Origin: a virus
Strand: one strand, 5' to 3'
Virus record (IMG/VR): IMGVR_UViG_3300046000_009425
Span: 1 to 21,537 of that record
DNA length: 21,537 nt
A program made the translations under genes and the position numbers. The notes beneath the pieces were generated by a model, which was not told the origin of the DNA, searched no databases, and was given only the letters and a program-made list of their open reading frames with translations. Positions 1 through 6,861 of this stretch are shown one piece after another (the stretch's first letter is position 1; every line of letters begins with the position of its first letter).

Positions 1-1722
1 TGATTGTCTTACCAAAGCAAAATCAGCTGTAGCTGTTAATGTATCAGCAAGTAATTCTCCATTTGGTGCTGTTTCAGTATTTGACGATACAGTAACATTG
101 GTTTTTATCCAGTTTGCTGCCGTAAAATCTTCACTCTGTAATAATGTATTATAATTTACAGATTCCAATAAATATTCAGGACATGAACTGCCTGAGTAAT
201 CTAATCTAGGTATGTTAAACCCAATCTGTCTATTATAAATTGGTGTGTTTATATCTACAGTTCCATTGACTACTTGAACACCCCATATTGCAACACCTTG
301 TCCATCAACTCTACTTGTAGAATTTAATAGCAAACTTGTTTGTAAATATATTTTATTCCAAATAGTTGTGCAATTAATACACACTTTATACCATCCATTT
401 CCTGCACTTTGAGAGGTATACGTTATACTATAATCTGTTGGATTATTAGCCAATGTCCCATTAGAGCAATCTATTTTTATGTTATATGTGTTAATATCAT
501 AATTAGTTCCTCCAGTACCATTGTGTAATCTTATACCTAAATATGGTTCAGTTCCTTGTTTTTTAACATACAATATCAGAGTTCTAATTCTACTTGTTGG
601 AAATGATTGTAAAGTTACGTCACCACCGCTAGTTAAATAAGTTAAATAGTAATTGTTATTAACAGTACCACCAAGTCTTATTATTGACCCTGTTAAAGTT
701 CCATCTGGTGCTTCTAATCCAGTATATGTTCTATTTAACGCAATATCAACCCATCTCCATATATTTCCATTAGCTACTGAACTTATTCTTGTACTTGGAT
801 ATATTAGATTTTCGTATGGACTATTTGTTAATAATCCATTAGAATCTGTTCTATACGGTATTGAGGTGTTTCCAAAATATGTATATTTATTTGTATTTTG
901 AGGGTGAGTTTCAATTTTTTGATATGGTGTTAAACTTGTACCCAATTCAAATTGAGCACCAAACATAAATGTGTTTCTATTTATGGCACCTAAGTATGAT
1001 AGTAATCTTGTTGCTGTTGGGTTATTGTTTACAAATGTAATGTAGACTGATGAGGTTCCAGTCGCAATACCAGTAGTTTGACAATTTCCAATAATAGCAC
1101 ATCTCCACCATCCATTACCAGCATCTGTAATACTTGTACTTGTTACACCACCACCTGAAGCTGTTGACACGCCTGTTACAATATTAAAATTTGCATAAGA
1201 TGTATTACTAAACCCTAATTGCATTATATCTGGTGAACCTGCACCATCACCTTTTTTAAGGTAACAACTCCATACAAATGGTGAACCTACACTTTCAATA
1301 AAATTAGGAACCCCTTGATTTCTATAGTGGCTATTTGTATTTGCAGCTTCAGTCATTTTAATAACGGTTGGTTCACCTGTTGGACTAGTACCAGCAACTA
1401 CTGCTTGTGTAACCTGTAAAGTGCTCCAAGATGTTGTTGACCCTTCACTCCTATATAATAGATTTCTAATATCATTAGTAGGTAGTGGTAACACTTGAAT
1501 TATTTCAGTTTCACTTGAATTGTTAGGTGTTAAAATCATTGTTGCAGAAGACAATAAATCTATTGTATCTAAGTCTGTTAAATCTGTAACTATACAAGAT
1601 TCTGCTTCAAATGTAGTACCTAGCTGCAATGTTCTTACAGTAATAAAATCTTTTAAATTTTTAATTAGACTTAAAATTAAGTTTCCACCTAATGTAAACA
1701 TCATCATTCTTCTTAAACTCAT
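1..1722 (-). CDS. Multi-module lectin-like tail fibre, 3' end outside window
   Basis: The reading frame is open for 574 codons from the ATG at 1722 and runs off the left edge without a stop, so the protein is longer. After a short N-terminal segment it contains similar jelly-roll-like modules. Module 1 (about residues 85-260) has the signature NGWWRC and ends in FMFGAQFELG. Module 2 (about 310-485) has NGWYKVC and IWGVQVVNG. PRLDYSGSSCPEYLLE lies at about 505-520, and a third module begins with TLLQSEDFTAANW. These phrases are typical of carbohydrate-binding modules in phage fibres, which adopt concanavalin-A-like folds; this is family knowledge. I infer a receptor-binding fibre or adhesin. 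The start lies 3 bases after the stop of the upstream fibre gene, so the two are probably coupled. In-frame ATG codons 6-8 are alternative starts. Confidence 0.8.
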   Translation of the reverse strand, partial: MSLRRMMMFTLGGNLILSLIKNLKDFITVRTLQLGTTFEAESCIVTDLTDLDTIDLLSSATMILTPNNSSETEIIQVLPLPTNDIRNLLYRSEGSTTSWSTLQVTQAVVAGTSPTGEPTVIKMTEAANTNSHYRNQGVPNFIESVGSPFVWSCYLKKGDGAGSPDIMQLGFSNTSYANFNIVTGVSTASGGGVTSTSITDAGNGWWRCAIIGNCQTTGIATGTSSVYITFVNNNPTATRLLSYLGAINRNTFMFGAQFELGTSLTPYQKIETHPQNTNKYTYFGNTSIPYRTDSNGLLTNSPYENLIYPSTRISSVANGNIWRWVDIALNRTYTGLEAPDGTLTGSIIRLGGTVNNNYYLTYLTSGGDVTLQSFPTSRIRTLILYVKKQGTEPYLGIRLHNGTGGTNYDINTYNIKIDCSNGTLANNPTDYSITYTSQSAGNGWYKVCINCTTIWNKIYLQTSLLLNSTSRVDGQGVAIWGVQVVNGTVDINTPIYNRQIGFNIPRLDYSGSSCPEYLLESVNYNTLLQSEDFTAANWIKTNVTVSSNTETAPNGELLADTLTATADFALVRQS

Positions 1723-1725
1723 AAC

Positions 1726-3891
1726 CTATGTTGCTTGATTTACTGAATAGATAATTTGATTATCTGCTATATAAGTACAATATATGTAATTTAATCCTGC
1801 TACATACTCTGAACTTCCGGTTAATTTTTTAAAATCTGATCCAATTGTAGGGACTGCTGATGCACTATGTATTATTATATTTGTTGCTCCAGGTATAGCA
1901 GAGGAAGTATTTGATGTTATTGCAGATCCTGTCTCAGGCAGGGCATATGAACCGTACATTCTATCTGTAGTAAATGAAATCTCTAATCCTGTTACTTGTG
2001 GTGAAGCTATTGGTAAATAATTTGGAGCTATAGAAGCTGTTTGTGCATAGCTTGCTGTTCCAAATAAAGAACCTGTTATACCTTGAGTTACATTTAATGA
2101 ACCTGTTATTACTTGATTTCCTATAAAAATATTTGAACCAGTTGTAGCAAGTGAACTTGTATTGATAGCTTGAGAAGGTGCCCATGAAGCACTTACTGCA
2201 AAAGAACTTGATATTGCTCTTGAAGAAGAAACTGCAAAGGAAGCTGTTCCGAATAAAGAACCTGTTATCGATCCACTCACTTTTAGTGATCCTGTTATTT
2301 CAACTATAGAATCATGAGCATATATTAAATTTGATCTACTATTCTCATCTTCACCATTTCCATGTATGAATGCAGATTGTACTGAGGATGAAATATTAAA
2401 TTGACCTTGTACATGTTGGTATGAACCAAATGCTACTGTTCCATACCCTTCAGCATGTGAATAATCTCCAGATGTTACTGTATTTGCTCCTTCTGCATGT
2501 GAATAAACTCCTTTTGCTTGAGTACCTCTTCCTTCAGCATGTGTTCCTGTTCCTTGTGATACTGTCTGTCTTCCTTCAGCATGTGAATATGATCCTGATG
2601 CTATTGCCCTATCTCCTTCAGCATGTGAATACTCTCCTGTTGCTGTTGTAAGATATCCTTCAGCGTGTGAGTAATCTCCAATTGCTTGAGTGCCGTTTCC
2701 TTCAGCATGCGAATAGCTTCCAGATGCTGTACTATCTCCTTCAGCATGTGAAAAATCTCCTATTGCTTGAGATGCGTTACCTTCTGCATGTGAATAATTT
2801 CCTACTGCTTGAGTCTGTCTACCTTCTGCGTGTGAGTTTGGTCCTAATGCTACAGTTAGGTATCCTTCAGCATGAGATTTTGGTCCTATTGCTTGGGTGC
2901 TTTCACCTTCGGTATGTGCATATGGTCCAGGTATTACATTATCTCCTCCAAAGTCTCCATTATCTTGTAGGTATGTCAAATCTCCTACATAAGCTATTGT
3001 AGTTGTAACTGAAGTATCGAATAGTTGTATTTCAGTTTCTGAGCTGTTAAATACAACAGTATCTATTTTAAATGATGCATATCCATATGCTCCATCAAAT
3101 TCTTCATCATACAAGTACAAATATCCACCTGGTGTAAAGTTTGCTGTTACATCTCCATAAGTACCATCTAATGTTATAAGTCCATCTAGTACTGCGAATC
3201 TTCCAGTAGCACTAAAAGCAGTTGTAATACCTGTTTTAGTTGTATTACCTTCGGCATGTGAGTTATTACCTATAGCTTGTGTATTAAACCCTTCTGCATG
3301 TGAATTGTTTCCTATTGCTGATACACCTTCCCCTTGCTGTAATTGTCCAGCTACATTTAATAAACTTCCATCAAAAGTTAAATCTACTTCACCATTTATT
3401 GTAGATCCTCCAGTTGCTGTTAGTATGTAATTATTTACATTATTTGTAATATTATTAGCTATAGATTGTACTATACTTGCTGTTGTAGCAAAAGAAGCAG
3501 ATACTGCTCTAGAAGAACTTACTGCAAATGATGCACTTGTACTATTAGTAGCAAATGAACTTGATATTGAATTAGAAGAACTAATTGCAAAAGATGCTGT
3601 TCCAAATAGAGAACCAGTAAAGGATCCTGTAAAACTTCCAGTATTATATGATGAAGTAAAAGCATTAAACGATGAAGTTGTTACAAAAGAACCTGTATTT
3701 ACTGTAGAACCAGATGGACCTGGTGGCCCTAGTGGTCCTTGTGGTCCAGCAGTGATTACTTCTACTATTGTAGTAACAGGTTGTACTACATTAACTGTAG
3801 TAGGGTTAGTAGGATCTGTTACAACTATTTGATTATTAGTTGTATTAATATCTACTGTGTTAGTATTTAATGTTATATTTACTTGAGACAT
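1726..3891 (-). CDS. Tail fibre with collagen-like and YadA-head-like repeats
   Basis: This 721-residue protein is a predicted trimeric fibre. In order it has an N-terminal Thr/Asn/Val-rich segment (1-45), a short collagen-like stretch GPQGPLGPPGPSG (about 50-62), and Ser/Ala/Phe-rich repeats of the type GSLFGTASFAxSSS (about 88-145). An array of 14-residue SHAEG units follows at residues 197-496, then further GSLFGTAS(F/Y)A copies (about 535-640) and a C-terminal domain without clear homology. SHAEG repeats match the left-handed beta-roll head repeats of YadA-type trimeric adhesins; GXY repeats also trimerise. A globular insert of about 100 residues (222-322) interrupts the array. The start overlaps the stop of the 128-residue gene by one base (TAATG). 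I infer a host-binding or whisker-like fibre; the exact attachment point on the virion is unknown. Confidence 0.85.
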   Translation of the reverse strand: MSQVNITLNTNTVDINTTNNQIVVTDPTNPTTVNVVQPVTTIVEVITAGPQGPLGPPGPSGSTVNTGSFVTTSSFNAFTSSYNTGSFTGSFTGSLFGTASFAISSSNSISSSFATNSTSASFAVSSSRAVSASFATTASIVQSIANNITNNVNNYILTATGGSTINGEVDLTFDGSLLNVAGQLQQGEGVSAIGNNSHAEGFNTQAIGNNSHAEGNTTKTGITTAFSATGRFAVLDGLITLDGTYGDVTANFTPGGYLYLYDEEFDGAYGYASFKIDTVVFNSSETEIQLFDTSVTTTIAYVGDLTYLQDNGDFGGDNVIPGPYAHTEGESTQAIGPKSHAEGYLTVALGPNSHAEGRQTQAVGNYSHAEGNASQAIGDFSHAEGDSTASGSYSHAEGNGTQAIGDYSHAEGYLTTATGEYSHAEGDRAIASGSYSHAEGRQTVSQGTGTHAEGRGTQAKGVYSHAEGANTVTSGDYSHAEGYGTVAFGSYQHVQGQFNISSSVQSAFIHGNGEDENSRSNLIYAHDSIVEITGSLKVSGSITGSLFGTASFAVSSSRAISSSFAVSASWAPSQAINTSSLATTGSNIFIGNQVITGSLNVTQGITGSLFGTASYAQTASIAPNYLPIASPQVTGLEISFTTDRMYGSYALPETGSAITSNTSSAIPGATNIIIHSASAVPTIGSDFKKLTGSSEYVAGLNYIYCTYIADNQIIYSVNQAT
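2404..3309 (-). repeat. SHAEG (YadA-head-like) 42-bp coding repeat array
   Basis: Fourteen units with core (S/T/A)H(A/T)EG recur every 14 residues (13 once), and the array ends with a degenerate HVQG. A typical unit reads SHAEG-xxTQAIG-xx. Units 1 and 2 are separated from units 3-14 by an unrelated insert of about 100 residues (bases about 2926-3228). The DNA repeats are imperfect, so this is an old protein repeat and not a recent tandem duplication. Confidence 0.9.
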
Positions 3892-4277
3892 TATGGTCTT
3901 GTTGTTTCTTTATTTAAATTAACTTGTCCCTCTAATATACGTGTTGTTATAGGGCATGTTCCTACACTACCTGAAAATATTTCTAAATCATATCTAGCAT
4001 TTAAAAAATTTAAAGCAGATGATGAGCAAGCCGAAATATAAATTCCAATGTATCCAGTACTTGCAGAAGACATGTTTAACCCTGTACCATCTGTTGCTAA
4101 TGAACTTGATAGAGTTATATAAGTTGTAGGATTATTATCAGCAAAGTTACTTCTGATTTGCATAGCCGCCCCATATCCTGTTAAGTTTATAGCGCTACCA
4201 CTTACATCTTTATATTGGATTTTAAAATCCACTGTAGTTCCTTGTTCTAATAAAATATTATATATTCCTGCTGCCAT
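3891..4277 (-). CDS. Small BppU-N/Ig-like virion protein
   Basis: This 128-residue protein begins with a beta-rich segment containing QGTTVDFKIQYKD, NLTGYGAAMQIR and a later ARYDLEIF. This layout (strand, polar/linear segment, 'dLtGy.a.mqiR', then 'Y.lei') resembles the N-terminal beta-sandwich domain of baseplate upper proteins (BppU_N-like) found beside fibres in many phages. I infer a baseplate or fibre-base adaptor. It starts one base after the stop of the gp15-like gene and shares one base with the start of the fibre gene, so it sits in a tail/fibre operon. No signal peptide or membrane segment is visible. The family assignment rests on motif resemblance only. Confidence 0.6.
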   Translation of the reverse strand: MAAGIYNILLEQGTTVDFKIQYKDVSGSAINLTGYGAAMQIRSNFADNNPTTYITLSSSLATDGTGLNMSSASTGYIGIYISACSSSALNFLNARYDLEIFSGSVGTCPITTRILEGQVNLNKETTRP

Positions 4278-5694: not shown

Positions 5695-6861
5695 TTAGCC
5701 TATAAAGATATTCATGGGGACATTCTGCAATGTTTGTTGCATAGCAATATTTTCCTCTGCTTTTCTTTGAAGTTGCATTCTACGTGAAGATTCATCTAAA
5801 TCTAAACGTAATTTTTCAATTAAAGCTAATTGTAAATCTCTTGCTTTACTTAATAAATCAGCTTGATTTAAAGATACCTCAGCTCCAGGAATTGGAACTT
5901 GAGTATATTTACCTCTAATAAGTCCTAAGGTTTCAGCTGCTAACGCTAATGTATATTCGAATATCCAGTACCTTCCAGGCGCATTTACATTAGAATAGGT
6001 AGGATTGTCATATGGCACGTTAGATATATCAGTAATTAAATTATCGCCTGATCCTGGCCCGTTTATTGCAATAACACTATTACGTTCTGATACTTTTATA
6101 TATTCAAAGAATAATCTTTTATCAGATGTAGGGATAGGAAATATTTTTAATTTATTATTAACAATTTGAAATGAGAATGCAGATCTTCTAATCTGATCGT
6201 TTAATTCAATGGCTTGGATAGTACCAATATCATAATTTAAAGGCATTAACATAAAGTTAATAGCAGGAGATTTATTACCAAACCCAAATGCATCTAATAA
6301 TTGTTGTGAACCATATCCTGTACCAGCATAAGGATCAAAATAACGAACAATAGCAGGAGCATTTTCGTAAAATATAGTTTTTATTTCAATTGAATCATCG
6401 GACGATACTGCTCCTGATGATGAAGCCCATGCTTTTAAATCATAGTCTTGTATTCCAGCTTCCATATCAATTGAACCAGTGTAGTATGTTGTATTACCTC
6501 CCACACCTGCTTCACTACCATAATCTTGAGCCATTCTAATAATATTTCCTAGTGAAGGTGTTATAACACTATTATTAAGAGACACATTATTAGGATTAGC
6601 TTCTAATGATAGAAAATTATTTCTTATTTGATATAAATAAAGTTCATTTCCATATGTTGTAACAGCAGACTCAAAACAAGTAAAGAAGGAACCACTATCC
6701 ATTTCAACATCCATTGAAGGGTATCCTAAACGAGTAGCACAGTATTTTGCTACCTTCACAGCATCCAACTGGAATTGATAATCATTATCATAAAACCCAA
6801 ATGAAGTTGCACTACCTTGAATAAAAGTAGAATTTCCCTTCCATAATTCTGAATTAGCCAT
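5695..6861 (-). CDS. gp13-like neck protein
   Basis: This 388-residue soluble protein carries near its N-terminus a segment (FQLDAVKVAKYCATRLGYP, about 30-48) followed by an acidic region and a helical stretch with FFTCFESAVTTYGNELYLYQ (about 58-78). The C-terminal 60 residues (about 325-388) are strongly helical and charged, rich in Leu, Arg, Glu and Gln, ending in PMNIFIG. The gene order PhoH - this gene - gp14-like - gp15-like suggests the counterpart of T4 gp13, which with gp14 closes the filled head and forms the tail-binding site. The assignment is from gene order and overall resemblance to neck proteins of distant T4-like phages. T4 gp13 is 309 residues, so this one is somewhat longer. 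Confidence 0.55.
   Translation of the reverse strand: MANSELWKGNSTFIQGSATSFGFYDNDYQFQLDAVKVAKYCATRLGYPSMDVEMDSGSFFTCFESAVTTYGNELYLYQIRNNFLSLEANPNNVSLNNSVITPSLGNIIRMAQDYGSEAGVGGNTTYYTGSIDMEAGIQDYDLKAWASSSGAVSSDDSIEIKTIFYENAPAIVRYFDPYAGTGYGSQQLLDAFGFGNKSPAINFMLMPLNYDIGTIQAIELNDQIRRSAFSFQIVNNKLKIFPIPTSDKRLFFEYIKVSERNSVIAINGPGSGDNLITDISNVPYDNPTYSNVNAPGRYWIFEYTLALAAETLGLIRGKYTQVPIPGAEVSLNQADLLSKARDLQLALIEKLRLDLDESSRRMQLQRKAEENIAMQQTLQNVPMNIFIG

Follow-up and report, generated by a model that had tools for sequence, protein, structure and literature searches.

The locus analysed here raises the question of what a segment of 100 residues is doing within a regular array of SHAEG repeats, and whether it belongs to the fold of the array or stands apart from it. 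The window, that is, the whole stretch of 21,537 nucleotides under study, comprises positions 1–21,537 of IMG/VR record IMGVR_UViG_3300046000_009425, called a virus by IMG/VR.

The putative fibre protein and its SHAEG array

An open reading frame on the minus strand (1726–3891) encodes a protein of 721 residues that matches phrog_25468 (E = 2.5e-45). From the N-terminus it is composed of a collagen-like GPQGPLGPPGPSG, a TGS-rich stretch, the SHAEG array with its insert, a cap, a second TGS-rich stretch and a C-terminal part, with the borders outside the array set by eye. In Pfam the protein matches YadA_head (PF05658; E = 8.8e-12; score 45.5 bits, cut-off 25).

Exact SHAEG occurs 12 times (residues 197, 211, 339, 353, 367, 381, 394, 408, 422, 436, 464 and 478) and is joined by the variants AHTEG (325), THAEG (450) and QHVQG (492). 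The array thus comprises 15 units (14 without the degenerate QHVQG), so that the 14 units counted in the initial annotation were right within one. Twelve of the 14 intervals between units measure 14 residues, one measures 13, and the one after unit 2 measures 114; as the usual interval is 14, the insert comprises 100 residues (222–321; 2929–3228, minus strand), within one residue of the borders first given, 222–322 after unit 2. The assignment of this segment as an inserted domain draws on the spacing of 114, the model and structure alignments described below, and 30 copies of the same module.

Preceding the insert are units 1 and 2, the N-terminal turns of the β-roll (residues 197–221; 3229–3303, minus strand), located by their motifs and by roll strands in the model. 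Following it are the rest of unit 2 and units 3–15 (residues 322–496; 2404–2928, minus strand), located by motif positions and spacing and ending at QHVQG. Below the array is a cap (residues 497–536, QFNISSS..SAFIHGNG..RSNLIYAHD..ITGSL; 2284–2403, minus strand), which forms part of the array-plus-cap query and has an approximate end border. Array and insert are not chance products, because the YadA_head match lies above its cut-off and independent contigs have the insert again in the same phase.

By eye, the N-terminus of the protein (3709–3891, minus strand; QP..VEVITAGPQGPxGPPG) resembles the product of a separate 176-residue gene of locus L024 (1728–2258). That gene comes after the phrog_1084 gene of L024, which hints at an anchoring piece common to both.

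Genomic context

In a Pfam scan the window matches Gp23 (E = 3.4e-75), Portal_T4 (E = 1e-66) and Terminase_6N (E = 2.8e-10). The contig is classed on this gene content as a T4-like myovirus, because a gp23-type capsid, a gp20-type portal and a T4-type terminase occur together. Searches of the window for Rfam families and for tRNAs gave no match.

Upstream of the fibre region is a neck gene for an Ad2-like head–tail adaptor (5695–6861, minus strand; phrog_211, E = 3.5e-9), followed by two more genes, a gene for a 128-residue protein (3891–4277, minus strand) and the fibre gene. The 128-residue protein matches phrog_1084, a family of unknown function (E = 1.5e-14), and weakly phrog_3304, annotated as L-shaped tail fibre assembly (E = 3e-4). 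The next gene after the fibre gene (1–1722, minus strand) is open at the contig end and matches the tail-protein family phrog_5939 (E = 1.4e-19). By eye, its product seems to contain segments that recur with WWR/WYK motifs, and it is perhaps a second adsorption protein.

An array gene also follows a head–tail adaptor gene in L025, and precedes a tail sheath gene in both L003 and L025; it is from the neighbouring genes and gene order in these two loci and in the window that we infer the fibre role. No neck gene was found among the neighbours in L005, L008, L020 and L022 (one neighbour protein each, four tested), the neighbour in L020 having its best match to an endolysin/head family.

Predicted structure of the roll and the insert

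Residues 177–380 were modelled as a single chain with AlphaFold2 from a 13-row alignment (pLDDT 89.3, pTM 0.81). Roll strands are present both before and after the insert, which has strands of its own and a short helix, and which occupies model residues 46–145 with block-mean pLDDT of 81–95. Folded alone, the insert reached a pLDDT of only 69.5, which makes confidence in its fold dependent on context.

Nine solved YadA-type heads align with the model from residues 1–6 to residue 204, with Z-scores of 14.3–17.8 and only 100–104 residue pairs. The r.m.s.d. is 1.0–1.2 Å for EibD (2xqh; Z = 17.1, 1.0 Å over 100 pairs, with 104 EibD residues spanned), CbpF (9gh4; Z = 14.3, 1.1 Å) and UspA1 (3ntn), and 1.3–2.9 Å for the others, which include BoaA (3s6l; Z = 17.8, 2.9 Å), BpaC (7o23; Z = 17.6, 2.4 Å) and YadA (1p9h; Z = 16.1, 2.4 Å). 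As the model outside the insert has 104 residues, these alignments appear to pass over the insert, and because the 1.0 Å fit of EibD spans the roll minus the insert, the turns flanking it would stack as if contiguous. The plant ice-binding β-roll 3ult scores within the range of the YadA-type heads (Z = 15.1). With Foldseek, neither the 177–380 model nor the insert-only model matched a PDB entry at E ≤ 0.001, and matches of the model in BFVD were mostly to the roll.

The array is thus predicted to adopt a left-handed parallel β-roll of the YadA-head type. That the insert is a separate small β-rich domain, predicted to be looped out of this continuous roll, is well supported by the model together with the relatives, which vary in having it. 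This agrees with the first description of the segment as a β-rich inserted domain protruding from the stalk; the contrary outcome, a segment that continues the β-roll, is not what the single-chain model and the structure alignments gave.

The insertion corner

SHAEG was set to positions 4–8 of the published turn numbering by sequence alignment with BpaC, a mapping of our own; that numbering puts the conserved glycine of the YadA-type turn at position 8 (PMC9543794). On this scale position 13 or 14 is the last before the insert and position 1 the first behind it, and the rare loop insertions reported in autotransporter heads fall between positions 14 and 1 (PMC9543794). Ordinary units (224, from 11 proteins) have Ala as residue 10 in 86% and either Ile or Ser as residue 11 in 68%; the units bearing an insert all have Gly as residue 11 (15 of 15).

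A strict corner test asks for a retained head (T@11..A@13) and a lost tail (A@13.G@1). This pattern is found in 28 of the 30 module copies, the exceptions being L068 and L102, which argues for one fixed corner for the module. Other large inserts are mixed: the head is kept without the tail in 11 (including L052 and L175, which are caps) and the tail is kept in six, from L135, L177 and L172; the remainder are ambiguous by this test. Short loops are also present in the arrays (50 counted, nearly all of 4–14 residues), and 29 of the 50 keep the tail. Because the tail is kept, the six large inserts and these 29 loops are placed at the opposite corner. Four large gaps, one of them ambiguous, fall within the single protein of L177, and L135 has two.

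The His and Glu of SHAEG correspond to BpaC positions 5 and 7, position 7 lying near the three-fold axis. Across the 127 array open reading frames (window positions 2404–3303 included), 2054 places were expected for a next unit, of which 1890 hold His and 1856 hold Glu; this tally is free of the condition that makes His and Gly 100% by construction in the tally of 224 units, where the search pattern demands both. With Glu near the axis, the core of the roll might contain acids and histidines stacked as a ladder, with water or ions perhaps bridging them.

Recurrence among relatives

Relatives were collected by scans with insert sequences and by insert-blind scans with array-plus-cap queries, in which the query from the window gave 67 relatives and that from L024 the best 80 of 177. 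Removal of contained duplicates left 127 of 195 array open reading frames overall and 113 of 152 in the insert-blind set; the latter represents the nearer relatives within a larger set, and some frames are cut by contig ends.

The module is present in 30 copies in 25 of the 127 non-redundant array frames, the window included, with one copy in 21 proteins, two in 3 and three in 1. It is placed after units 1 to 35, in arrays of 6–43 units. The near-duplicates L005/L006 and L162/L169 are kept among the 30 copies, and 28 rows were used for column statistics: G221 and G237 are conserved in 28 of 28 rows, F252 and T286 in 96% and L290 in 93%. Within the insert-blind sample (for the L024 query, the best 80 of 177), 18 of 113 array frames contain the module and 95 are without it by profile, so such fibres do not need it. 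Sixteen frames of this set have only another large gap, which by eye is a cap in L052 and L175 and a run of degenerate units in L179. Flavobacterium phage immuto has an array with no insert and a spacing of 14 throughout, from which aquatic Bacteroidota can be guessed as hosts; the array of L002 is likewise free of the insert. Relatives thus have the array without the module, with the module elsewhere or with other inserts, the variation for which the initial annotation proposed to look; the opposite outcome that it named, a segment shared by all relatives as an integral part, is contradicted by the 95 insert-blind arrays. In L004, L022, L024, L039, L068, L077, L086 and L122 the array-plus-cap block is repeated within a single fibre, with modules in at least one block.

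Among 4491 open reading frames, redundant loci included, the module profile (E ≤ 1) matched 65 array frames and no others, a count that says little about other proteins because the loci were picked for arrays or inserts. The inserts of L171, L066_u19 and L046 match this profile with E of 2e-6 to 5e-6 under lenient settings (filters off, 21 sequences only) and have hhalign probabilities of 77, 57 and 11, respectively, scores that we distrust because L179, with its degenerate units, scored 38; the three are not counted as members. Some of the other large inserts are perhaps distant relatives of the module.

Searches of 13 module copies against Pfam, PHROGs and NCBIfam had best E-values of 0.065, 0.01 (phrog_22767, from one of the 13 copies) and 0.17, respectively, none convincing, and a PDB sequence search with the 13-row module profile gave only E = 1.4 and 9.3. 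With tblastn against 50,697 named phage records, the window insert and those of L084 and L104 were unmatched at E ≤ 1 and the L004 module at E ≤ 10; the whole 721-residue protein has matches in 12 named phage records. Four of these 12, those of immuto, match from residue 278, a point inside the insert, but the immuto array has no gap. Two further contig scans returned pattern matches and no relative, scans of this kind detecting close relatives only.

Probable gain, loss and exchange of the module

The orthologous fibres L020 and L039 are almost the same at both ends and carry two inserts and one, respectively. The second insert of L020 and some units around it are absent from L039, which has an extra array–cap stretch. 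The two L020 inserts are 26% identical to one another, with identities of 81% to the L024 copy and 86% to the L077 copy. Inserts within one protein are 29% identical in L008 and 39% in L086; as the nearest copies elsewhere of these are only 30–42% identical, exchange is seen best in L020. At the DNA level, the insert shared by L020 and L077 is 91% identical and its flanks 75% and 86%, a comparison that is only suggestive because the flanks are repeats. Copies within one protein are 77–86% alike in L022/L023, and the three of L023, with identities of 77–86%, look like the outcome of duplication inside the gene. Together, these sequence comparisons suggest that the module is swappable, having been gained, lost, duplicated and exchanged between fibre genes, and recombination among like turns would be the simplest route.

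A possible role for the inserted domain

The explanation that we propose, and consider rather probable as a whole, is that of an adsorption fibre with a YadA-type roll and an exchangeable corner barrel adding a sideways contact surface. In a T4-like myovirus the 721-residue protein would form an adsorption fibre of the virion, with a left-handed parallel β-roll of the YadA-head type, presumably trimeric, at its centre. A β-barrel of about 100 residues would leave the roll at an outer corner, between position 14 and position 1 of the next turn, and return in register, so that a trimeric fibre would have three barrels projecting laterally at a common level. Phages would gain, lose, duplicate and exchange this barrel, probably via recombination in the repetitive units. 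Its likeliest job would be to provide a second, sideways contact surface for a glycan or other surface ligand, and the insert may in this way help the virus to grip its host.

A precedent is the rider of a K1 lyase, a small β-barrel leaving one turn of the trimeric β-solenoid of a phage adsorption protein, whose loops contribute to the lining of a second carbohydrate site, one of importance for adsorption (PMC8822698). By this analogy, and from the shuffling pattern, we give an added contact or ligand-binding site about even odds, favouring it over a structural brace, and a brace over a passenger. The same rider contacts the neighbouring β-helix, and a quadruple mutant is less thermostable (PMC8822698), as would suit an insert that packs on the neighbouring subunit and serves to stabilize the trimer or to mark a bend while binding no ligand itself; the most conserved module columns (G221, G237, F252, T286 and L290) also look like core and turn residues. 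We hold such a bracing role, the main rival to the contact site, to be possible but on the whole unlikely, since 95 of 113 insert-blind arrays (for the L024 query, the best 80 of 177) are without the module, the orthologues L020 and L039 differ in copy number, and copies within one protein diverge to 26–39% identity (L020, L008 and L086), beyond what is expected of a shared packing interface, although the 77–86% likeness of the L022 and L023 copies limits this last argument.

The outer corner of a β-roll might also tolerate functionless domains, the insert then being a neutral or near-neutral passenger. The frequency of short loops in the arrays is in keeping with this, as are the loops that bacterial adhesins have inserted at this corner (PMC9543794), but one sequence family recurs and its conserved columns are kept over great divergence, where passengers would lose them, and we judge this origin improbable. 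The open frames of the module copies do not count against it, because the search was made in open frames. That the segment consists of degenerate SHAEG units or continues the roll is scarcely credible: arrays can hide degenerate units, as the L179 gap seems to by eye, but the segment has no SHAEG-like period and is looped out in the model and the structure alignments.

Returning to the added contact site, a broader idea can be put forward tentatively, as one that we would not yet expect to hold: the SHAEG β-roll might serve as a rack, with ligand-binding barrels swapped, duplicated and lost at one fixed corner and other inserts at a second, so that recombination among like turns could re-tool the fibre for new hosts while the roll stays undisturbed. 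If the explanation proposed above is right, it would show where and how a widespread class of phage fibres accepts whole extra domains, with a highly regular scaffold providing a natural, modular point of attachment, and would offer a directly testable route by which fibres could change what they bind. The module is a domain family not found in Pfam, PHROGs or NCBIfam.

Comparison with known systems

YadA-like repeats are shared with tail fibres of uncultured and marine phages, such as UniProt A0A6J5LUW0 and a pelagiphage fibre (PMC3909814). A0A6J5LUW0 is 44% identical to the window model over 232 columns and may therefore carry the same insert; the passages of PMC3909814 on the pelagiphage fibre describe no insert. 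The phage YadA-type fibre is known, and an exchangeable domain of about 100 residues was not found described in the sources searched, nor did the papers listed from open-licence PMC text include one on such inserts in phage β-rolls.

YadA-type heads (YadA, EibD, BpaC, UspA1 and CbpF; PF05658) have the same 14-residue turn and conserved glycine, and the predicted roll of the window protein superposes on nine solved heads. Their insertions between positions 14 and 1 are reported as loops (PMC9543794), whereas the phage protein has a domain of about 100 residues there; it further differs from YadA-type adhesins in being a phage protein, in its SHAEG motif and in the Glu at the position near the axis. 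A Pfam scan of the whole protein (E ≤ 1) found YadA_head only and no YadA membrane anchor, and without this C-terminal anchor the protein is not classed as a trimeric autotransporter adhesin. Head insert motifs (HIM) and last-turn insertions of trimeric autotransporters also interrupt a YadA-like head roll, but are described in the last turn or over the neck (PMC2483945, PMC7688925), whereas the phage module stands early, midway or late, in one to three copies. The window insert, after unit 2 of 15, is by its placement not a HIM, and other copies follow units 1–35.

The best fold matches of the insert are small β-barrels and similar domains; they include a domain of 8pvs (Z = 7.6), a GH110 barrel, the T5 Dit protein pb9 and a half-domain of Uba1 (all Z < 8) and, for the insert alone, a phage tail tube protein (Z = 7.0); as all have Z ≤ 7.6, under the trust level of 8, they may reflect a common arrangement. 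In the K1 lyase of Klebsiella phage NTUH-K2044-K1-1 (PDB 7w1c, assigned by title) the insert aligns to residues 136/138–231, the rider, with Z of 7.2 in context and 6.5 alone, both below the same level. This lyase differs in being a β-helix enzyme, with no sequence similarity to the insert shown. With a fold match below the trust level, its rider nevertheless appears to be the best mechanical analogue of the domain that leaves the SHAEG roll.
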